64,000 nucleotides of DNA from Candidatus Melainabacteria bacterium (GTDB taxonomy: Bacteria > Cyanobacteriota > Vampirovibrionia > Obscuribacterales > Obscuribacteraceae): contig JABDBL010000007.1 of assembly GCA_013288645.1 (NCBI GenBank), positions 1-64,000 of the forward strand, written 5' to 3'. Made by a program: the position numbers and the translations under genes. The number at the start of each line of letters is the position of its first letter. The stretch's first letter is position 1. This document shows, piece by piece, positions 1,763 through 45,283 of this stretch. A model generated the notes under the pieces. It had not been told where the DNA came from, did no database searches, and saw only the letters and a program-made list of their open reading frames with translations.

Positions 1763-1785
1763 AAAATGAAAACGGTTATCATTTT
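1763..1785. promoter_or_regulatory. Fur/Zur-type 23-bp palindrome operator
   Basis: Arms AAAATGAAAAC and GTTATCATTTT around a central G (position 1774) form an 11-1-11 inverted repeat with one mismatch. The core is a 7-1-7 TGAAAAC-G-GTTATCA, the architecture used by Fur-family repressors; the cyanobacterial Zur box is TGATAAT-n-ATTATCA. It lies about 34 bp before the start codon of the ATPase gene, a position suited to repression. Which family member binds (Zur, Fur, Mur) cannot be decided here. Confidence 0.6.
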
Positions 1786-1818
1786 GGAATAACTTTGTTT
1801 GGATATGGAGGATTGATT

Positions 1819-2805
1819 ATGCGTATAGGTTTTTTTGGCAAAGGTGGTGCTGGTAAAACTACAACAGCGGCAGGCTTTATCCGATACCTTATGACGAAGA
1901 CATCTTATGTTTTAGCAATCGATGCTGATGTAAATATTCATCTTAAAGATGCTCTGCAAATAAATAATTTTGCTGGACAGCAATACGATTTGGGTGAGAA
2001 AGCTTCTGAAATCACTTCTTATTTAATGGGAAAGAGAACTGATTTGGCCGGTCGTCCTTTGATAAGTAGCACTCCTCCTTCTCTTAATTCTAATTTTATT
2101 AGAGTGGCAAAAGAAGATCCCTTTATTGTCTCAAGTGGTTTGCATACAAATGGTCTTTCACTTTTAACTGTAGGAACTTACCAGCAGGAAGATGTGGGGG
2201 CATCTTGTTATCATTCTAAACTTGGTGTTTTAGCTATGGTTTTTCATCATCTTCTTGATGGAGAACAAGACTATGTCGTGGCTGATACGAATGCTGGTAC
2301 AGATAATGTGGCCACCTCATTAGCATTTGTCTATGACATGAATGTGTTTGTGGTTGAGCCGACTGAAAAATCTATCAAAGTCTATCAAGATTTTATTCGC
2401 TTGTCGGAAAAGCTGAACGGAAAGACTTTTGTGATTGCCAATAAAGTAGACGGTGATTTAGATAGGCAATTTGTAGAAAAATTTGTGGATAAGGAAAAGC
2501 TCCTCGGTTTAATTCCCTATTCTAAGCATTTAAAGGAATTCGAACAAGGTAATCGGGGAGCTTTATCTTCCTTTGCCATGCAACAGTATGATGTTTTCGA
2601 CACTGTTCTGGAAGTGTGGAAAAAGCAGATTAGAAATTGGGAAGCGTATTTGGCTACTCTTCAGACTGTGCATAAGAAAAATTCTCTCGAGTGGTACGAC
2701 GCCTACTACGGCACTAGTTTATCCGACAATCTCGATCCCAATTTCAAATACCAAAATGTGCTAGCAAAAGATGTTTCAACAGTAAAAGAACTTGTAAGGA
2801 ATTGA
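1819..2805 (+). CDS. CooC/MinD-family P-loop ATPase
   Basis: A SIMIBI-class ATPase of 328 residues. It opens with MRIGFFGKGGAGKTT, the deviant Walker A with the signature lysine (KGGxGKTT), followed by a switch-like AIDADVNIH and a Walker B-like VVADTNAGTDN near residue 155. This resembles CooC, the ATPase that helps load Ni into CO dehydrogenase, more than chromosome-partition ParA; NifH-like and ArsA-like relatives share the fold. I chose ATG 1819 over an in-frame start at 1795 because GGAGG lies 7 nt before it. It is the first gene of a four-gene operon behind a Fur/Zur-type palindrome; the next start is 3 nt after its stop. A role in metal or cofactor handling is inference. Confidence 0.8.
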   Translation: MRIGFFGKGGAGKTTTAAGFIRYLMTKTSYVLAIDADVNIHLKDALQINNFAGQQYDLGEKASEITSYLMGKRTDLAGRPLISSTPPSLNSNFIRVAKEDPFIVSSGLHTNGLSLLTVGTYQQEDVGASCYHSKLGVLAMVFHHLLDGEQDYVVADTNAGTDNVATSLAFVYDMNVFVVEPTEKSIKVYQDFIRLSEKLNGKTFVIANKVDGDLDRQFVEKFVDKEKLLGLIPYSKHLKEFEQGNRGALSSFAMQQYDVFDTVLEVWKKQIRNWEAYLATLQTVHKKNSLEWYDAYYGTSLSDNLDPNFKYQNVLAKDVSTVKELVRN

Positions 2806-2808
2806 TTT

Positions 2809-4317
2809 ATGCTTAAACAATTATTGCCAGATGATCTTAGTACATTGCCAGCAGATGGTTCTGCTGATTTAGCTTTAAAACTGAAAGCGAATCTTAATTC
2901 TGAGGTTGAAAAATTCTTGGCAGACAAAGAATTTGTATTTGAGTTGGTTAGAGGTTTCGGCAGTCCTTTAAATATACTCTTACCGGATTTATTGCAAGAT
3001 AATGTACATGCTTTTCAGAAAATACTTAAGAGTTATTTTTTGTCGGGAAAAATATTTTTTGCTCACAAAACCAACCGATCCGACAGTATTTTAAAGAGGC
3101 TGTCATTAGAGGATGTCGGTATAGATGTGGCATCCGCAGCCGAATTAAAACATGCTCTCGCTTGTGGATTTGCAGCAGAACGAATCGAGGCCACCGGACC
3201 TAAAAACGCAGAGTTTTTGGCTCTAGCTTTATCGCATAATATCGTAATTAATATTGATAGCATTGTCGAGTTGGAGGAAATAATTCGACTAAAGGAAAAA
3301 TATAATTATTCTAGTCGGACGCAGATTCTATTACGTTTGTCGGACTTCGGAAATAATAGTCGATATTCAAACAAAACAAGTCGTTTTGGTATATGTTCTT
3401 GGGAGATTGATGATGCTTTGAATTTGATATTGCAAAGTAAAAAAATAAATTTACTTGGTTTGGCCTTTCACTTAGATACAGTCAGTCTATTAGAAAAAGC
3501 TGCGGCGATTGAAGTATGTTTAGAAATCTTTGAACGAGCTATTGCAATTGGTTTACAGCCTTCTATATTGAATATAGGTGGCGGTTTTAAACTAAATTAT
3601 TTAGCCTATCAATCAGATTGGGACGCTTATACCACTGCTTTGCGCGAAGCGGTTCTTGGGCATAGAAGGCCAATAACATGGCAAAATAATTCATTCGGGC
3701 TTAAAGCAGAAAAGAATGCCCTACGAGGCGGTCTAAATATATATAGCTATTATGATTCTCTGACAGGCGCTCAGTTTTTAGAGGCATTATTAAAACAGAA
3801 TTTGCCTAATCGCAATAATGCTCAGATCGGTAATTTTCTTAGAGACAATGGTATTCAACTTTGGCTTGAGCCAGGGCGATCGCTAGTAAATCAAGTTGGA
3901 TTAACGGTTGGACGAGTCATTTCAATTCGTAAATCAAGTCAAGGTGAAAATCTTGTCTGTTTGGAAATGAAGCGGCAAGATTTGTGTTTTTTAGATCAAG
4001 AATTTTTTGTTGATCCAATAATCCTATATAAGAATCCCGGCAATATTGATCTGGTTAGTCCAATGGCTGTTTATTTTGCTGGTAACCTGTGTTTAGAGAG
4101 CGATGTAATTTATAGACATCAAACATTTGTGGATAAGTTGCCGCAAACTGGTGATCTTGTAGTTTTTCCAAATACTGCCGGATACTTTATGGACTTCAGT
4201 GCCTCTGAATCGATCATGCAACCAGTGGCCTCCAAAGTTACAGTTTACAAAGATAATGGACGATTTATTTGGGCGCGGGATGAGAATTACTTACCGTGGT
4301 CTGTTGGAGGGTTTTGA
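2809..4317 (+). CDS. Y4yA/SbnH-like fold-III PLP decarboxylase
   Basis: A 502-residue pyridoxal-phosphate enzyme of the alanine-racemase/diaminopimelate-decarboxylase fold. The barrel begins with GSPLNILLPD and the PLP-lysine region FFAHKTNRSD. It continues with VASAAELKHAL, a glycine-rich phosphate loop LNIGGGFKL, and WLEPGRSLV, as in DapDC-type enzymes. Overall it matches the Y4yA family, named from the rhizobial symbiosis plasmid and related to SbnH, which decarboxylates a citryl-diaminopropionate intermediate of staphyloferrin B. AAGGA precedes the ATG, and the stop overlaps the next start by one base. Its partner downstream is SbnA-like, so the pair recalls siderophore/diamino-acid chemistry; there is no IucA/IucC synthetase here. 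The substrate is unknown. Confidence 0.8.
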   Translation: MLKQLLPDDLSTLPADGSADLALKLKANLNSEVEKFLADKEFVFELVRGFGSPLNILLPDLLQDNVHAFQKILKSYFLSGKIFFAHKTNRSDSILKRLSLEDVGIDVASAAELKHALACGFAAERIEATGPKNAEFLALALSHNIVINIDSIVELEEIIRLKEKYNYSSRTQILLRLSDFGNNSRYSNKTSRFGICSWEIDDALNLILQSKKINLLGLAFHLDTVSLLEKAAAIEVCLEIFERAIAIGLQPSILNIGGGFKLNYLAYQSDWDAYTTALREAVLGHRRPITWQNNSFGLKAEKNALRGGLNIYSYYDSLTGAQFLEALLKQNLPNRNNAQIGNFLRDNGIQLWLEPGRSLVNQVGLTVGRVISIRKSSQGENLVCLEMKRQDLCFLDQEFFVDPIILYKNPGNIDLVSPMAVYFAGNLCLESDVIYRHQTFVDKLPQTGDLVVFPNTAGYFMDFSASESIMQPVASKVTVYKDNGRFIWARDENYLPWSVGGF

Positions 4318-5675
4318 TGATTGTCAAAAATGTAACGCAATTAATTGGTAATACACCGTTGCTTGAGATCGATCCTTCCGTACATGGTTTAAAAAATGTC
4401 AATCTTTTTGCCAAGCTTGAGCTGCTTAATCCCTTCGGCTCCGTAAAAGATAAAACCGCTTGGAATATGTTGCGCCATGATTTAGACGATATCAAGACTA
4501 AATCACAGACTGTAATTGAATCTTCGAGCGGCAATACGGCGAAAGCACTGCAGATGATTCTGTCCATGCATAAGATACCGTTCAAGATAGTGACTAATCG
4601 CATTCAAGTACGCGAAGTAAGGCAAATATTGCAATTAATTGGTATTGATATCGAAGAGCTGCCAGGACAGTCTCAGTGTCTAGATCCAACAGATCCTAAT
4701 GATCCACAATTTATAGTAGAGCAGATAATCAACAGTGCTCCAGACAAATATTTTCACACCTCACAATATACAAATTTGAAAAATCTAGAAGCACACAGTC
4801 TCATGACCGGAGAAGAAATTGTCAAAGATTTAGCGCGGGTTGATTACTTCTTTGGCGGTCTTGGTACAACTGGTTCTACAAGAGGGACTGGAATGCGTCT
4901 GAAAGAGCAGAATGCTAATCTTAAAAATATTGGTGTGATATGTGCAAAGGGAGAATCTTTACCAGGCATACGAAATGTAGATGAAATGTACGAAGTGGGG
5001 CTTTTTGATAATAGTTTTTACGATACTATTATCGAAGTGAAAATTGATGAATCTATTGATTCGATGTTAACCCTAATCCGTTCCTGCGGAGTTCTTGCTG
5101 GGCCCACAGGTGGTGCTAGCTTGGCAGCTGTACTGAAATATTTCCAAGAGATTGATGAAGAATTAGAAACAGAGAAAAACGTAGTATTTATCGTTTGTGA
5201 TCGAGTGGAATGGTATTTGTCTTATCTTCAGAAATATAGGCCGCGATTGTTCGGTTTGGCAGAAAAGAAATCTGGACTTTCAGATATAAGCGTGGCTGAA
5301 AGCAAAGAAAGTCCTGAGATCTCACCTGATCTGGCCCTGCAATGGCTTAATCAAATGCCACGACCTTTAATTATTGATATTCGGGGGCAGTTAGCCTATA
5401 AGAGTACACACATACATCAATCAATAAATATTCCTGCTGATGCGTTAGAAGAGTTGCTCAAATGGGGGATGCCGACTGCTGCGGATCAAAAAATACTTTT
5501 TGTTTGTCCAATTGGAGAACAATCAAAAAGATTTGCTGCATACTTTAACAGGAAAGGTTTTGTTGCTTGGAGCCTTAAAGGCGGTTTTGCTGAGTGGAGG
5601 AATTATCATGCTACGTGCACTCATTTAAATCTGGCAAACGATAAAGCAAAACAGCCCGTGGCAGGGTTTAAATAA
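4317..5675 (+). CDS. SbnA-like PLP synthase fused to rhodanese
   Basis: Start chosen at ATG 4317, 6 nt after GGAGG and overlapping the previous stop (TGATG), giving 452 residues. Residues 1 to about 325 are a cysteine-synthase-fold enzyme: IGNTPLLEI, PLP-lysine in PFGSVKDKTAWNML, and ESSSGNTAKAL. The glycine loop GLGTTGSTRG is closer to SbnA-type synthases, which use O-phosphoserine, than to CysK. Residues about 340-435 form a rhodanese domain (PLIIDIRGQLAY, a CPIGEQS active-site loop with its cysteine, and GGFAEW). The fusion suggests that sulfur is transferred to or from the amino-acid product. The next gene is a cysteine desulfurase, a natural sulfur donor to a rhodanese. The actual reaction is not established. 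Confidence 0.82.
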   Translation: MIVKNVTQLIGNTPLLEIDPSVHGLKNVNLFAKLELLNPFGSVKDKTAWNMLRHDLDDIKTKSQTVIESSSGNTAKALQMILSMHKIPFKIVTNRIQVREVRQILQLIGIDIEELPGQSQCLDPTDPNDPQFIVEQIINSAPDKYFHTSQYTNLKNLEAHSLMTGEEIVKDLARVDYFFGGLGTTGSTRGTGMRLKEQNANLKNIGVICAKGESLPGIRNVDEMYEVGLFDNSFYDTIIEVKIDESIDSMLTLIRSCGVLAGPTGGASLAAVLKYFQEIDEELETEKNVVFIVCDRVEWYLSYLQKYRPRLFGLAEKKSGLSDISVAESKESPEISPDLALQWLNQMPRPLIIDIRGQLAYKSTHIHQSINIPADALEELLKWGMPTAADQKILFVCPIGEQSKRFAAYFNRKGFVAWSLKGGFAEWRNYHATCTHLNLANDKAKQPVAGFK

Positions 5676-6985
5676 TGGTCAATGTGAATAATCAGCTTCT
5701 TAAGAATGAATGTGTGTTTACTCCGCCAAGTAGTGTGCACGCGTCGAGCTTTAGCTCAATCAGAAAACAGTTTCCCGCGATTAAGGAGAACACTGGCACT
5801 ATCTTTTTTGATAATGCGGCAACAACACAAAAGCCGCAGCAAGTAATCGATGCAATGAACTCATTCTATATGCAGTACTGCGTAAATGCTAATCGAGCCG
5901 CGTATTCTTTATCGAGCAAATTACATCAGCAAGTAGAAATAACCCGCGCGACAATAGCAAGGCTCATAAATGGAGAGGCTACTGATATAGCTTTCACTTC
6001 CGGCGCCACCGATAGTCTGAATCTTGTGGCACTAGCCTGGGGACTACATAATTTAAATGACCGAGACGAAGTAATGCTTTGCCTAGAAGACCACCAATCG
6101 GCGATATTACCATGGATTAATTTGAAACTGCATTTGAATCTTTTTGGCAAACATATTGAAATTGTGCATTTTCCCATACATTATTCAGGAATCTACGATC
6201 GAAAAAGCATTTGTGAAAAAATAACTCCCCGCACTCGTCTTGTGGCTATGACGCATATTCATAATCTTTATGGATTAGAGTGGGATGGAAAGGATTTGGC
6301 AGAGATCAGAGCACAATTGCCAGACGATACACTAATATCTCTTGACGTTAGTCAAAGTATTGGACACACTGTCGTTGACACGGATCAATTAGCAGTAGAT
6401 TTTATTTCTTTCTCTGGACATAAAATGTTTGCAGCCAACGGTATAGGTGTTCTATGGGTAAATCCCAAAATAAGAGAAAAACTTTATCCAGCGCGGATTG
6501 GTTCCAAAAGTTCGGTGACAATAGTTGATGGCGAAATGAAAATTGACAGATCCACTTTAGCTGGAATTTTAGAGTGCGGCACTTTAAACCTGCCCGCGAT
6601 TTATTCGCTGAAATCAGCTGTAGAATTTATAGAATCAATCGGTATGAAAAATATAGAAACGCATGTGTCTTACCTAACTCGTTTTTTGTATGAAAAGCTA
6701 AGGGTCATTCCAACAATAGAGTTTGCACCGGGCGTAAATAATTACAATTGTGCAAAAGGGTTTGGCATAATAAGCTTTAGATTTTCTGGAATATCTTCCT
6801 CTGATATGGCTCAATATTTAGACCAACGTGGTGTTCAGGTACGAAGTGGAGACCATTGCTTGGCGACCAAGCATAGCGAGGAGGCTGACTATATTAGAGT
6901 GAGTTTGCACATATACAACACAGAGGAAGAAATAGATTTATTTGTCAAGTTTTTAGAGCAGGTGTTGAGTTGGCAAGACTTGTGA
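5675..6985 (+). CDS. SufS/CsdA-like cysteine desulfurase
   Basis: A 436-residue class-V aminotransferase-fold enzyme of the SufS type. It shows IFFDNAATTQKPQQVIDAM, the PLP-lysine motif SFSGHKMFAANGIGVLW, and a C-terminal VRSGDHCLATKH loop with the cysteine that carries persulfide in SufS (compare VRxGHHCAQP). It probably removes sulfur from cysteine and passes it on as persulfide. The start ATG overlaps the stop of the rhodanese-fusion gene (TAATG), so the two are likely translationally coupled and the rhodanese domain is an obvious acceptor. No SufE, SufB, SufC or IscU gene is adjacent, so this need not be a general Fe-S cluster desulfurase. It ends 30 bp before a convergent metal exporter. 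Confidence 0.85.
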   Translation: MVNVNNQLLKNECVFTPPSSVHASSFSSIRKQFPAIKENTGTIFFDNAATTQKPQQVIDAMNSFYMQYCVNANRAAYSLSSKLHQQVEITRATIARLINGEATDIAFTSGATDSLNLVALAWGLHNLNDRDEVMLCLEDHQSAILPWINLKLHLNLFGKHIEIVHFPIHYSGIYDRKSICEKITPRTRLVAMTHIHNLYGLEWDGKDLAEIRAQLPDDTLISLDVSQSIGHTVVDTDQLAVDFISFSGHKMFAANGIGVLWVNPKIREKLYPARIGSKSSVTIVDGEMKIDRSTLAGILECGTLNLPAIYSLKSAVEFIESIGMKNIETHVSYLTRFLYEKLRVIPTIEFAPGVNNYNCAKGFGIISFRFSGISSSDMAQYLDQRGVQVRSGDHCLATKHSEEADYIRVSLHIYNTEEEIDLFVKFLEQVLSWQDL

Positions 6986-7014: not shown

Positions 7015-10000
7015 TCAATTTGATAAAACTTTGTTTTTAGAGAAAGCCCATTCGTATACCACAGGCAAGACTAAAAGAGTGAGCAAAGTAGATGTGCATA
7101 GACCACCTATAACCACCGTAGCCAATGGCTTTTGAATTTCAGCTCCTGATCCTTGTGATAAGGCCATGGGCAGAAAACCCAGCGCTGCCACAAGAGCGGT
7201 CATGATCACTGGACGCAAGCGAGCTAGAGAGCCTTGTTTAACAGCTTGATGAATAGGTAATCCTTGCTCAACCAATTTGTTTATATAGGAAACTAATACT
7301 AGGCCGTTTAAAACTGCTACGCCAAAAAGAGCAATGAAACCTATTGAGGCAGGTACACTTAAATACATATGCCGAAGCCAAAGGGCAAAGACACCACCTA
7401 TAAGAGCAAAGGGTACATTTAAAAGTACTATAAGAGCTTGTCTAGCCGAATGAAAAGTAAAAATCAGCAAAGTAAAAATAATAAAAATTGAAAGAGGTAC
7501 GACAAAAATGAATTTGTTCATAGCCCGTTGTTGATTTTCAAATTGTCCGCCCCAAGTTATACGATAGCCTTTATCCAGCGAAACCGATTGGCTGATTTTG
7601 GCTTGGCACTCTTCAACGAATGAACCTAAATCACGATTGCGCACGTTGCATTGAACAACGATGCGACGTTGTCCAAATTCACGGTTTATAGTTTCAAGAG
7701 CTTGAGCGAGTTTTACGTCTGCTACCTGACTGAGTGGTACAAGTTTGTTATTGCTGCCCTGGATCAATAAATTGCCCACATCCGAGGGTTCAAGTCCCAT
7801 ACCCTTGGGAAATTGAATTCGTATATTAAAGCGCTTTCTACCCTGAATTACCTGTGTTTCTGCTACACCAATAATAGCAGTCTGCAACAAGGTACGAATC
7901 TCGGCTATATTGACTCCGTAACGAGCCATTTTTATCCTATCCGGCAGTATCTCTATTTGTGCGCTGCCAGTTAGTCGCTCTACCTGTAAGTCAATAGCTC
8001 CTTTTACTTTAGCAATAGTATTTTGAACTTCTTGCGCTTTTTGTTGCAAATAATCGACATCATCTCCGAAGATCTTTACAGCTAAATCTGAACGCACACC
8101 TGAGACAAGCTCGTCTACACGCATTGCGATGGGTTGAGAAAAATTAAAGTTTGCACCGGGTATAGTATCATTTAAGTTTTTCCGCAGTTCTTCCGTGAGG
8201 CGTTCTTTATTCATACCCAAAGGCCAAGAATTTTTTGGGTTAAGGATAATAAAACAATCAGTGCCATAAACTCCCATTGGGTCTGTTGCCAAGTCCGGTC
8301 TGCCTAAACGAGAGACAACCGTTTTTACTTCGGGAAATTTTTTGATCACTCTTTCTATTTGAGTAGCTGTGTCTATGGCTGCTGGTAACGAAATGCTAGG
8401 GAATTCTTTGACTTCTAGCAATAAATCCCCTTCGTCTAGTTTAGGTACAAATTCAGTGCCAATAAAGAACAGAGAAAATGTGCTTAAGCTTAGTAAGGAC
8501 AAGGATATGTTTATTGTTGTGCGCTTGTGATCGAGGGCTATATCAAGTAGTTTCGTATAATACTTTTTCGCAGAGCTGATAATAAACGTCTCTTTTTCCT
8601 TGGTGTTTCGTTTAAGAAAAAATATGCAGAGCACAGGTATTAGTAATAAAGACAATAAGAGTGAGCCTAGTAAAGCGGAGCATACCGTGATTACCATGGG
8701 TGAAAACATTTTGTATTCGATGCCTTCCAGGCATAAAATAGGAATATAGACAACAGTAATAATCAATATTCCAAACAAAATTGGCCTAGATACTTCGCTT
8801 ACTGATTTCTCGATTATTTGCTGTTTGCTTAAATGTTCTAACTCTTTATCGTTTAAATTGCGCAAAATATTTTCGACCATCACGATGGCACCATCTACAA
8901 TCATGCCAAAGTCAATTGCGCCCAGACTCATAATATTGGCCGTAATTCCGGCGCAACGCATGCCTAAGAAAGAGAATGTCATTGCTAGAGGGATAATAGA
9001 AGCTACTATAAGAGCGGCTGGAATATTGCCGACAGTAAGAAAAAGCACGGCTATAACAAGCAGTCCCCCCTCAAATAGATTTATGCGTACTGTATCAATA
9101 GTTTGTTCTACTAATTTAGATTGGTCGTAAAATGGTTTAAGGGTTACTCCCTCAGGAAGATTGTGTGTAATTTCTGCGATCTTTTCTTTTACTTTGCTAA
9201 TTACGTGTTGACTATTTTCGCCTTTTAGCATCATTACTAAGCCCACGACAACTTCTCCCAAGCCGTCTTTGGTGGCTGCACCTTGGCGTAATTCGGCTCC
9301 ATGACTAACAACACCTAAGCTTTTTATATAAATGGGTACGCCATTGGCAGATTTGACAATTATGTTTTCTATATCACTTATTGAGGCTACTCTGCCTATG
9401 CCGCGCACTATATATTGCTCACTCTCGTGGTTGATAATGCCGGCGCCAAAATTTTCGTTATTATCCTTAAGTGCTTCCAGAACTTCCTTGATGGTAATTC
9501 CGTATAGCTGTAATTTAGCGGGCAGAATTGTAACTAAGAATTCGTCAGTGAGACCACCCCAAGTATTTACTTCGGCAACGCCAGGTACAGTACGCAAGGC
9601 GTATTTAATATCCCATTCTTGGATTGTTTTTAATTGTGTTGGCCAGTGTGCGGAGCTTTCTAAGACGTACTGATAAATTTCACCCATAGCAGTGCTCACC
9701 GGTCCCAACTGGGATTCTACTCTTTCGGGCAAGCGTGAATGAGCTGCTTGCAAACGTTCGAAAACTAGCTGGCGCGGGAAATAAGTGCCTAGACTGTCTG
9801 GAAAAACAACTGTGATTACAGATAAGCCGAATTTCGATATTGATCTAATTTGCTGAACGGAAGGTAGTCCGTTCATAGTTGACTCTAGCGGAATAGTAAT
9901 TAATTGTTCGATTTCAATCGGCCCCATTCCCGGTGCTTCGGTGAATATTTGCACCTGATTATTAGCTAGGTCGGGAAAAGCATCGATAGGTAAATGGAAA

Positions 10001-10089
10001 AGGCTATAAATGCCAGCACTTACGAAAAATAAGAACAAAAGACAAATTAAAGATTTAAAGCGAGTGAGTTTAGCAAAAAAACTTTCCAT
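7015..10089 (-). CDS. CzcA-type heavy-metal RND efflux pump
   Basis: A 1024-residue inner-membrane RND transporter of the heavy-metal-efflux (HME) family, close to the usual 1040-1060. The N-terminal helix is followed by IDAFPDLANNQVQ, typical of CzcA/CusA. TM4, near residues 390-405, reads DFGMIVDGAIVMVEN. The D/D/E pattern is that of CzcA-like HME pumps for divalent cations (Zn, Co, Cd, Ni); the Cu/Ag pump CusA lacks the first Asp. It should work with the membrane-fusion protein encoded 1 bp upstream and a TolC-like outer-membrane channel, which is not in this window. Convergent with the Fur/Zur-box operon, so zinc or a similar metal is a reasonable shared theme. Confidence 0.93.
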   Translation of the reverse strand: MESFFAKLTRFKSLICLLFLFFVSAGIYSLFHLPIDAFPDLANNQVQIFTEAPGMGPIEIEQLITIPLESTMNGLPSVQQIRSISKFGLSVITVVFPDSLGTYFPRQLVFERLQAAHSRLPERVESQLGPVSTAMGEIYQYVLESSAHWPTQLKTIQEWDIKYALRTVPGVAEVNTWGGLTDEFLVTILPAKLQLYGITIKEVLEALKDNNENFGAGIINHESEQYIVRGIGRVASISDIENIIVKSANGVPIYIKSLGVVSHGAELRQGAATKDGLGEVVVGLVMMLKGENSQHVISKVKEKIAEITHNLPEGVTLKPFYDQSKLVEQTIDTVRINLFEGGLLVIAVLFLTVGNIPAALIVASIIPLAMTFSFLGMRCAGITANIMSLGAIDFGMIVDGAIVMVENILRNLNDKELEHLSKQQIIEKSVSEVSRPILFGILIITVVYIPILCLEGIEYKMFSPMVITVCSALLGSLLLSLLLIPVLCIFFLKRNTKEKETFIISSAKKYYTKLLDIALDHKRTTINISLSLLSLSTFSLFFIGTEFVPKLDEGDLLLEVKEFPSISLPAAIDTATQIERVIKKFPEVKTVVSRLGRPDLATDPMGVYGTDCFIILNPKNSWPLGMNKERLTEELRKNLNDTIPGANFNFSQPIAMRVDELVSGVRSDLAVKIFGDDVDYLQQKAQEVQNTIAKVKGAIDLQVERLTGSAQIEILPDRIKMARYGVNIAEIRTLLQTAIIGVAETQVIQGRKRFNIRIQFPKGMGLEPSDVGNLLIQGSNNKLVPLSQVADVKLAQALETINREFGQRRIVVQCNVRNRDLGSFVEECQAKISQSVSLDKGYRITWGGQFENQQRAMNKFIFVVPLSIFIIFTLLIFTFHSARQALIVLLNVPFALIGGVFALWLRHMYLSVPASIGFIALFGVAVLNGLVLVSYINKLVEQGLPIHQAVKQGSLARLRPVIMTALVAALGFLPMALSQGSGAEIQKPLATVVIGGLCTSTLLTLLVLPVVYEWAFSKNKVLSN

Positions 10090-10090
10090 A

Positions 10091-11368
10091 TTAATCTTCG
10101 GTGCTGATCTTAGATTTCAATAATTCAGATTTGAGTTTAAAACTGCCGCTACCCACCACTTCGTCGCCAGCACTTATGCCGTCTCGAATCATATAACCAT
10201 CACCTACTCTATCGCCTAATGAAACTGAACGCTTTTCAAAAATACCATCATCATGTCTAATAAAAGCAAATGTCTCATTGTCATATTTTTGCAATGATCG
10301 ATCATATAAATAAGGATATTCTTGGCTGCTGCTGCCGCTGATTTCTGCTTGACCAAACATGCCAGGCTTAAGATTCATATTTTGATTGGGCAAGATAACC
10401 CGAGCGAGAAAAGTCTTTGTTGTGTCGCCAGCTAACGGTTGAATATAACTAATATTGCCAGTGAATTTTGCTCCGTGCAGACTATCGCTGCGGAAGGTTA
10501 CTAATTGTCCTTCTTTTATTTTTTGCAAGTCCTTATCGTAAACGGCTACATCTAACCAAACTTGCGATAAATCTGCTACTACATAGAGGACTTGACTTGG
10601 CGATACTACGTCGCCGACAGTGACATTTTTTTGAATAACAACACCACTCTTAGGAGCGACTATGGGGCTACCTGAGTTTATATGTTCCATTCCTCCCTTT
10701 TCTTCTTTTTCTAACGAAACGCCATATGTAGCAAGCAATTCTTTAGCTTCAGCTCTTATATGAAGATGATGTTCTAATAGACCTTTAAGGTCGATCTCTA
10801 AGATCTTTTGTTGATTTTCAGCGGCCAATAAATCCTTTTCGGCGACAATACCTTCTTGGCTCAGACGAGATAAGCGCTGCATTGTTTTTTTGGCTAAATC
10901 CAGACGTGCTTGCACTTGAGCAATGTCGACCTCATTTTGATGTGCTTGGTGTATGTATTCTCCATAAGTGCGAGCAACCTCTAAATTTTGAATAACAGCA
11001 AGTTGGTCGCCGCGTTTAATGGTTTTGCCTAATGTGACATCGTCCTCAATTACTCTGCCGGCAACAATTGAATTAATATGGAAGACACGGTTTTCATCTG
11101 CTTTGATTTCGCCGGTAGTAATGATTTTTGCTTGATCAATCCGATTTTCGACTGTCAGTATTTCAAGCTGGGCCGAATCAAGAGCCCGTTTAGATAAAGA
11201 AATTCGATTAGGATTTAAAGCCGATGCAGAAACAGTAACCTTATCGGGCTGTTGATTTGCACAGGCTGAAAGACAAGCGCAACTGGTGAAGAGAATCAAG
11301 TTATCAATTTGATGTTTTATTGAAAATCGATTAAGAGTTGATTTTTGATTTCCTCGACTTTTGATCAT
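10091..11368 (-). CDS. CusB/CzcB-like membrane-fusion lipoprotein
   Basis: A 425-residue periplasmic adaptor of the HlyD/CusB type that links the RND pump to an outer-membrane channel. The N-terminus carries a hydrophobic stretch ending in a lipobox-like CLSACANQQ, so it is probably a lipoprotein. Then come a biotinyl-lipoyl-like half motif (HINSIVAGRVIEDDVTLGK), a helical hairpin (about residues 130-205), a second half motif (SPIVAPKSGVVIQKNVTVG), a beta-barrel and a membrane-proximal domain (VGDGYMIRDGISAGDEVV). No His-rich or CzcB-type zinc-binding N-terminal extension is seen. It lies one base from the pump gene, 4 nt after the TPR gene, in one transcription unit. Confidence 0.9.
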   Translation of the reverse strand: MIKSRGNQKSTLNRFSIKHQIDNLILFTSCACLSACANQQPDKVTVSASALNPNRISLSKRALDSAQLEILTVENRIDQAKIITTGEIKADENRVFHINSIVAGRVIEDDVTLGKTIKRGDQLAVIQNLEVARTYGEYIHQAHQNEVDIAQVQARLDLAKKTMQRLSRLSQEGIVAEKDLLAAENQQKILEIDLKGLLEHHLHIRAEAKELLATYGVSLEKEEKGGMEHINSGSPIVAPKSGVVIQKNVTVGDVVSPSQVLYVVADLSQVWLDVAVYDKDLQKIKEGQLVTFRSDSLHGAKFTGNISYIQPLAGDTTKTFLARVILPNQNMNLKPGMFGQAEISGSSSQEYPYLYDRSLQKYDNETFAFIRHDDGIFEKRSVSLGDRVGDGYMIRDGISAGDEVVGSGSFKLKSELLKSKISTED

Positions 11369-43960: not shown

Positions 43961-45283
43961 TCATTGTGAATTAATTTCTTGTAGCGAAACGTGGGTAGGG
44001 ATAATGTCAACTGGATAGGGGAAGAACCCCGCTATTGTGTAAAAATGGTCTGGATCGGGATTTTTAGTGGCAGCCCAATAAGAATTTTGAGCACGGATTT
44101 TTTTTGCCTGCTCTTGTAGCGACCGGGCTAGAGTCAATTTTCTTTGTTTTGAAGCTACTTGTGATAAACGTTCAAGACAGAAAACTTGTCCAGAATAAAC
44201 GACTCCGTCAGGATGAATAATTTTGTTTGTTGAGTTAACTTTAGGAACCGGACATTTTTCAAACGTAATTAAGCTTGTTCGGAGGAGCCAATCTGCTTCA
44301 GTTAGGTTTCCCAGGCGATATTCCAATAGACCTAACGTTGCGCCATACATCCCTGTATAGATTGTATTATTGAACGACGGAAATCTTTCAGCATGTTTCT
44401 TTATTGATTCAAAGGCTTTTGTATAAAGTGCTTTCGCTCTCTCTTTGTCTCCCTCCTCTTCTTTTGCATGACCGAGATAAAAATAAAAGCGAGGATCGTC
44501 AACAATACTTTTATTGGTTTGGTCAGGTTGGAAAGCTCTATTAAGAGCGACTTCAGCATCAGCTGGCCGACATGCCAGCAAGTACGACATTCCTAGGTCC
44601 AAATACATTGAAACTGTATTGTTCGGATCAACTGAGTTTACTCGCTGCATATAGCTGGTTAGCTTTTCATTGTAGTGCACTAATTTTTGATAATTTCCGT
44701 ACTGTCCACAATCACTTTTAAGTAGCATTGTTCTACTTATCAAAACAGGATCAAGTTTGTCCTCCGTAGAAAGCTTAATGTCTAGATAGTGCTCTAGACA
44801 ATATTCTTTTATATCTTCTCTTATTGAATGTTCGCCACGTTTGTAAAAAGCGTTTGCCATATCGTCCATCCACACTTGGAGATTAGAATCACAGGCAGCC
44901 GTATCTTTTATGGTTAAGGCAAGTTTTATCGCTTTCTGAACCAATACATCGGTCTGTCCTAACTTGTGGTTTTGTATTTTAACTTGTACTAAACGGCTTA
45001 GAAATTCAATGACTTTCATGCTCGATCCAGAGTTTTCTGCTTCTGCGAGAGCTTGAGTGTATAAGCTGTCTGCTTTATCTAAAGCACCATCAGTTTGTGC
45101 TTTTAAAGCCTGCATTCTTAGATTCGAAACGGATTTTTCTAAAGAAATAGCCTTTTGTTGGATTTGGATATGTTGAATATAAAAACATAGAGCGGTTGCA
45201 CTGATAATAAATATCAATACAAACATAAACGTCAATAAGCGCCAGCGTTTATCTAATTTATTTATGGTTTCTATTGAAAACAT
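43961..45283 (-). CDS. Membrane-anchored TPR-like protein, copy 1
   Basis: A 440-residue protein. One N-terminal helix (LLTFMFVLIFIISATALCFY, about residues 16-35) is followed by a coiled-coil start and TPR-like helical pairs: ALDKADSLYTQALAEAENS, YFYLGHAKEEEGDKERAKALYTKAF. The C-terminus ends IIPTHVSLQEINSQ. It is a clear paralogue of the protein encoded at 49256-50563. The first 185 or so residues are nearly identical, the centre has drifted, and the last 30 are again similar. The topology predicts an extracytoplasmic solenoid. Function unknown; neighbours are envelope genes. Confidence 0.75.
   Translation of the reverse strand: MFSIETINKLDKRWRLLTFMFVLIFIISATALCFYIQHIQIQQKAISLEKSVSNLRMQALKAQTDGALDKADSLYTQALAEAENSGSSMKVIEFLSRLVQVKIQNHKLGQTDVLVQKAIKLALTIKDTAACDSNLQVWMDDMANAFYKRGEHSIREDIKEYCLEHYLDIKLSTEDKLDPVLISRTMLLKSDCGQYGNYQKLVHYNEKLTSYMQRVNSVDPNNTVSMYLDLGMSYLLACRPADAEVALNRAFQPDQTNKSIVDDPRFYFYLGHAKEEEGDKERAKALYTKAFESIKKHAERFPSFNNTIYTGMYGATLGLLEYRLGNLTEADWLLRTSLITFEKCPVPKVNSTNKIIHPDGVVYSGQVFCLERLSQVASKQRKLTLARSLQEQAKKIRAQNSYWAATKNPDPDHFYTIAGFFPYPVDIIPTHVSLQEINSQ

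Follow-up and report, generated by a model that had tools for sequence, protein, structure and literature searches.

The window analyzed here, a stretch of 64,000 nucleotides (nt) from a Candidatus Melainabacteria bacterium (contig JABDBL010000007.1), carries near its left end a four-gene operon preceded by a putative Zur-type box. We propose, with a probability of roughly 0.55, that this is a zinc-starvation operon for the zinc-repressed synthesis of a zincophore of the diaminopropionate/ethylenediamine type. The box is a palindrome at positions 1763 to 1785, and the genes, all on the plus strand, encode a CooC-like MinD-family ATPase (1819..2805), a fold III pyridoxal phosphate (PLP) decarboxylase resembling Y4yA and SbnH (2809..4317), a fusion of PALP and rhodanese domains resembling SbnA and aspergillomarasmine A (AMA) synthetase (4317..5675), and a SufS-type cysteine desulfurase (5675..6985). 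According to the sequence and its open reading frames (ORFs), a 3-nt gap separates the first two genes and 1-nt overlaps join the others. An earlier reading of the same DNA, made from the letters alone (the sequence-only reading), had placed the palindrome and the four genes correctly to the base, and its family assignments agree with ours: a CbiA/MinD-type ATPase nearest to CooC in the Protein Data Bank (PDB), an SbnH/Y4yA-like decarboxylase, PALP plus rhodanese, and a SufS-type desulfurase.

Comparative evidence for zinc control

Control of the operon by Zur, and with it a link to zinc, is well supported by several comparative lines of sequence evidence. The box, AAAATGAAAACGGTTATCATTTT, is a 23-bp imperfect palindrome with no strand, in which 10 of 11 positions pair; its 15-bp 7-1-7 core, TGAAAACGGTTATCA, spans 1767-1781. 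The palindrome is not significant by itself: the window holds one such 23-mer, versus 0 to 3 (mean, 0.5) across ten 64-kb sequences simulated with a Markov model, so that about one such 23-mer is expected by chance for every two windows. Its significance rests on its position 33 nt 5' of the first start codon and on its conservation in relatives.

When genome contigs were scanned with the third gene, the quartet was found in the same order at 13/13 related loci, which bears out the co-occurrence that the sequence-only reading had proposed to look for. Among the relatives, the upstream region is intact in 12, and each of these has a related box near the first gene, with 0 or 1 mismatch in 8 and 3 mismatches in 4, versus 4 to 6 mismatches for the best match in shuffled 21-kb loci used as a control. 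The relatives' box, GAAAAYGGNAACCRTTTTC, is found about 50 to 150 bp 5' of the first gene and overlaps the called start in locus L016; positions 1768-1785 of the window are the same motif read on the opposite strand.

The box also defines a small regulon. At one mismatch or fewer, 22 sites were found in 53 Obscuribacterales genomes, versus 8 with a reversed-pattern control. Their neighbors are this operon (10 sites), a TonB-dependent receptor (5), a COG0523 GTPase (2), and MerC with cation efflux (2), with three unclear. One of the box-preceded COG0523 GTPases passes the cutoff for the zinc chaperone ZigA (610.8 versus 600). The sequence-only reading had proposed a scan for the palindrome beside known zinc or iron genes, and the conserved box does occur before ZigA, a second COG0523 gene, TonB receptors, and cation efflux genes. 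In two genomes, a MerC-like gene and a cation efflux gene adjoin the conserved box (L118:1064-2432 and L119); Zur of Streptomyces coelicolor activates a zinc exporter (PMC5472717). The window's genome, a draft of 2.78 Mb in 87 contigs that is 72% complete, has one other near-perfect box (G000:C3:125209), about 100 bp upstream of a gene for a TonB receptor, which is followed by a TonB-like gene. On that contig, the receptor has a carboxypeptidase-regulatory domain (L082:4323-7109) and a TonB C-terminal protein is encoded at L082:3809-4213. No ZnuA was found in the window's genome.

The decarboxylase, PALP-rhodanese, and SufS genes are also consecutive on two Streptomyces replicons, so that the triad recurs in another phylum; the sequence-only reading had named recurrence in unrelated genomes with Fur/Zur boxes as support for its idea. 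In Streptomyces sp. strain NBC_01237, the triad follows genes for L33, L31, a COG0523 protein, S18, and a His-rich ORF, with L28 and S14 divergent; standard Zur targets include families of these island genes (table in PMC6103462). The box GAAAATGGAAACCATTCCC lies between the two divergent arms of the island, and over 16 bases the box GAAAATGGAAACCATT of the same strain does not differ from that of locus L011. The strongly His-rich ORF of 100 amino acids stands immediately 5' of the decarboxylase gene (L098:16041-16343) and has no Pfam match.

Alternatively, the box could be a Fur box and the operon a Fur-controlled siderophore operon with an iron-binding product. The 7-1-7 core is also compatible with Escherichia coli-type Fur boxes, the Fur-family protein of the relatives' operon scores highest with Fur models, below their cutoffs, and Y4yA/SbnA pairs are found in iron siderophore clusters as well. 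We nevertheless consider iron control very unlikely, because the box also stands before ZigA and a second COG0523 GTPase and in the Zur ribosomal-protein island of Streptomyces. At every fixed position, the core agrees with the actinobacterial Zur motif TGaNAANNNTTNtCA (quoted in PMC5472717), a loose motif that E. coli Fur boxes fit too; it is this agreement together with the box regulon and the Streptomyces island that favors Zur over Fur. The metal-repressed operon of the sequence-only reading is supported, with its "Fur/Zur" narrowed to Zur and zinc as the metal. Zinc-loaded Zur on the box at 1763-1785 would repress the operon, and zinc scarcity would lead to joint expression of the four genes.

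Gene content and distribution of the operon

Most related loci hold an operon longer than the window's, in the order AspH-like hydroxylase, ORF5, CooC1, decarboxylase, PALP-rhodanese, SufS, flavin adenine dinucleotide (FAD) enzyme, double GNAT, Fur-family regulator, CooC2, and methyltransferases. The Fur-family gene lies within the operon at 9 of the 13 loci, and a divergent MFS gene stands beside it at 8. The window copy clusters near two shorter operons, those of genomes G020 and G036, and a separate branch (G039/G049) has the order desulfurase, CooC, decarboxylase, PALP-rhodanese. A strong PALP-rhodanese match (E value below 1e-100) is present in 32/53 Obscuribacterales genomes. Spread across the Cyanobacteriota was considered and rejected, as none of 385 other genomes sampled from the phylum has a match at an E value of ≤1e-50.

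Predicted chemistry of the two PLP enzymes

In the third protein, the PALP domain (about 4332-5201) carries K44 and an ESSSGN motif and the rhodanese domain (about 5340-5603) carries an invariant C397, as judged by alignment; the assignment also draws on Pfam, fold, and profile searches. Its AlphaFold model (mean predicted local distance difference test score, 80.9) finds AMA synthetase (8h4h/8h4q) as the best fold match (E value of 7e-28), and the family profile ranks the same enzyme first over both domains (E value of 4e-43). Whole-chain superposition is loose, with a root mean square deviation of ~20 Å that does not establish the domain placement. The SbnA equivalog model TIGR03945 gives 151 bits, below its cutoff of 350.

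AMA synthetase couples O-phosphoserine with aspartate to make AMA, a metal chelator, and Fusarium Fda4, also a PALP-rhodanese protein, couples O-phosphoserine with alanine (PMC12751119). Because the closest match and Fda4 do such chemistry, the window enzyme likely forms a C-N bond from O-phosphoserine. By analogy with SbnA, AMA synthetase, and Fda4, it would most likely join O-phospho-L-serine to the amino group of aspartate, glutamate, alanine, or a similar compound to give an N-(2-amino-2-carboxyethyl)-amino acid. ORF5 of the longer operons may be a kinase that makes O-phosphoserine: its DGNHR motif is invariant, and it has a weak SbnI-like match. Its assignment as an SbnI-like serine kinase was not retained, since the fold search returned SbnI (probability of 0.38) and free serine kinase, none of them significant.

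The decarboxylase, which matches Orn_Arg_deC_N, conserves K87 (FAHK), GGG, EPGR, and C428 (CLESD) in the alignment. Its best PDB match is 6knh, identified as SbnH (PMC7139808), and Y4yA-annotated homologs are ~30% identical. It would then strip a carboxylate from the PALP-rhodanese product, leaving an ethylenediamine-type chelating backbone that would be exported as a zincophore. In other bacteria, Y4yA and SbnA-type genes are neighbors in clusters with IucA/IucC, opine dehydrogenase or ornithine cyclodeaminase, a TonB receptor, and iron ABC transporters or MATE exporters. Such pairing of Y4yA/SbnH-type decarboxylases with SbnA-type synthases in metallophore clusters supports the metallophore-type chemistry that had been suspected from the sequence.

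Roles of the desulfurase and the CooC-like ATPase

The desulfurase is assigned from TIGR01979 (306 bits, below the cutoff of 475), matches to SufS structures, and alignment, in which K250, H140, C395, and R408 are invariant. In the G039/G049 branch, the desulfurase belongs to the IscS/NifS subfamily instead of SufS. Since the catalytic residues are kept and one subfamily replaces the other, desulfurase activity itself appears to matter. The enzyme would either pass a persulfide to the rhodanese domain, giving a sulfur-bearing product, or have a supporting role.

The first of these options can be extended to a sulfur-containing zincophore, in which a persulfide on the rhodanese Cys supplies sulfur that is inserted, by the PALP domain or at a later stage, as a thiol or thioether zinc ligand. 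The invariance of the desulfurase residues and of C397 is in its favor, as is the subfamily swap. We regard it as rather unlikely, given that the rhodanese domain also occurs in two enzymes with C-N products, AMA synthetase and Fda4, that making cysteine from O-phosphoserine with cysteine-derived sulfur would be circular, and that no thiocarboxylate-forming adenylating enzyme is present. The sequence-only reading had inferred an added sulfur-transfer arm and a sulfur-containing product. The fused rhodanese is weakened as evidence for the arm by the shared architecture of the two C-N bond-forming enzymes, and it was dropped as proof of sulfur transfer once AMA synthetase emerged as the nearest solved relative. 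The product may still contain sulfur, as the desulfurase is catalytically complete and replaceable by another subfamily, but the rhodanese domain alone is no evidence for this.

The first protein matches CbiA in Pfam and CooC (3kje) by sequence. It has a Walker A motif, GKGGAGKT, and an invariant C130-Y-H132 (nt 2206-2214) that aligns with the C-Y-C of 3kje, so that the CxC nickel site is absent. A role in handling zinc is plausible from this sequence; the ATPase would probably do so through the Cys-X-His site, as a counterpart of the COG0523 metallochaperones. A CooC-like ATPase of Nonomuraea (L077:14899-15867; 33% to the operon's CooC2) keeps CYH and has a Zur-like box ~20 nt before its start. 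The surrounding genes were considered as a biosynthetic cluster and rejected as such, the next ORF being a shadow ORF of NucS.

A zinc-sparing or metal delivery operon would assign the same proteins differently: under zinc shortage, the CooC-like ATPase and the desulfurase would serve the maturation or repair of a metalloenzyme or Fe-S protein, and the PLP enzymes would feed a small-molecule cofactor. The ATPase and the desulfurase are maturation-type proteins, zinc-sparing paralogs are frequent in Zur regulons, and the Nonomuraea gene stands alone behind its box. Such an operon is nonetheless improbable: a decarboxylase paired with a PALP enzyme, as here, is a typical feature of metallophore clusters, and the operons of relatives showed no gene for a scaffold, a target enzyme, or Fe-S assembly.

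Evidence weighed against a zincophore

Several observations count against zincophore synthesis. AMA synthetase is only ~22% identical to the PALP-rhodanese protein of the window. The operon has no SbnB-like dehydrogenase, nonribosomal peptide synthetase (NRPS), or NRPS-independent siderophore (NIS) synthetase, and the route by which a chelator would be completed is not evident. The absence of a NIS synthetase (IucA/IucC), already remarked from the sequence, was confirmed in the window operon and in the annotated operons of relatives. The relatives' accessory genes (FAD enzyme, GNAT, and ORF5) were not found elsewhere in the window's 72% complete genome. TonB receptors co-occur with the operon at chance, being present in 22/32 genomes with it and 14/21 without it; the receptor was therefore rejected as a cognate partner and kept as a member of the box regulon only. 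Finally, three Obscuribacterales genomes have triads of decarboxylase, PALP-rhodanese, and SufS that lack CooC (L078:5277-12522, L080:8208-15423, and L085:5169-12446) and that adjoin metal ATPases of the P1B type with YHS/HMBD domains; no Zur-type box was evident near two of these triads. In these genomes, a role of this chemistry in metal resistance is conceivable.

Start site and flanking genes

For the first gene, ATG at 1819 is preferred over TTG at 1795 because homologs begin with MRI or similar; a predicted ribosome-binding site, GGAGG, precedes it on the plus strand (1807..1811). A VIT-family transporter gene lies upstream of the operon (1014-1712) and convergent CzcA/CzcB-type efflux genes lie downstream (7015-11368), which marks the left end of the window as a metal-related stretch. 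Farther along, two ORFs of 440 amino acids on the reverse strand (at 43961 and 49256) group together as paralogs.

Significance and comparison with known systems

The sequence-only reading knew of no described pathway with this combination of genes, and none was found in the open-access literature searched. We tentatively suggest, as a possibility that we consider less likely than not, a new class of zincophore, made by a bacterial AMA-type PALP-rhodanese synthase and a Y4yA decarboxylase, possibly with cysteine-derived sulfur, and paired with a new Zur-controlled family of Cys-X-His CooC-like zinc chaperones, in the Obscuribacterales and partly in actinomycetes. If true, an uncultured, nonphotosynthetic lineage related to cyanobacteria, and in part Streptomyces strains, would have a zinc acquisition pathway with its own enzyme logic, AMA-type chemistry would be tied to a natural role in bacterial zinc starvation, and a Zur-linked CooC-like ATPase family would have a metal site unlike that of CooC. 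Provided that the strain can be obtained, the copy in Streptomyces sp. NBC_01237 should make the prediction testable.

The CooC of CO dehydrogenase shares the MinD-family fold with the window ATPase, and the sequence similarity spans both halves, but CooC has CxC where the ATPase has an invariant CxH. The surroundings of the operon in the window and in two fully listed relatives showed no CO dehydrogenase gene; no genome-wide search was made.

AMA synthetase and Fda4 are, like the window enzyme, PALP-rhodanese fusions, and one of the PDB structures (8h4h/8h4q) contains O-phosphoserine; unlike it, they are fungal and not known to be zinc controlled. Fungal aspergillomarasmine strips zinc from metallo-beta-lactamases. 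We know of no decarboxylase, desulfurase, or CooC-like ATPase that partners with AMA synthetase or Fda4.

The staphyloferrin B pathway (SbnA, SbnH, and SbnI) has an SbnA-like synthase and an SbnH-like decarboxylase in common with the operon, which differs in lacking SbnB, NIS synthetases, and a citrate synthase, in predicted control by Zur instead of Fur, and in its extra desulfurase, rhodanese domain, and ATPase. In the Y4yA and SbnA clusters of rhizobia, Aureimonas, and Mycobacterium avium plasmids, too, the genes for the decarboxylase and an SbnA-type enzyme are adjacent and accompanied by transport genes. These clusters, however, rely on opine dehydrogenase or ornithine cyclodeaminase, in some cases on IucA/IucC, and they lack a rhodanese fusion, a desulfurase, and a CooC-like ATPase. 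In regulation and chemistry, the comparison is with [S,S]-ethylenediaminedisuccinate (EDDS), the zincophore of Amycolatopsis japonicum, which is Zur controlled and depends on neither NRPS nor NIS enzymes (PMC4993170, PMC6103462). By analogy, an AMA-type intermediate of O-phosphoserine and aspartate, once decarboxylated, would correspond to half of EDDS.

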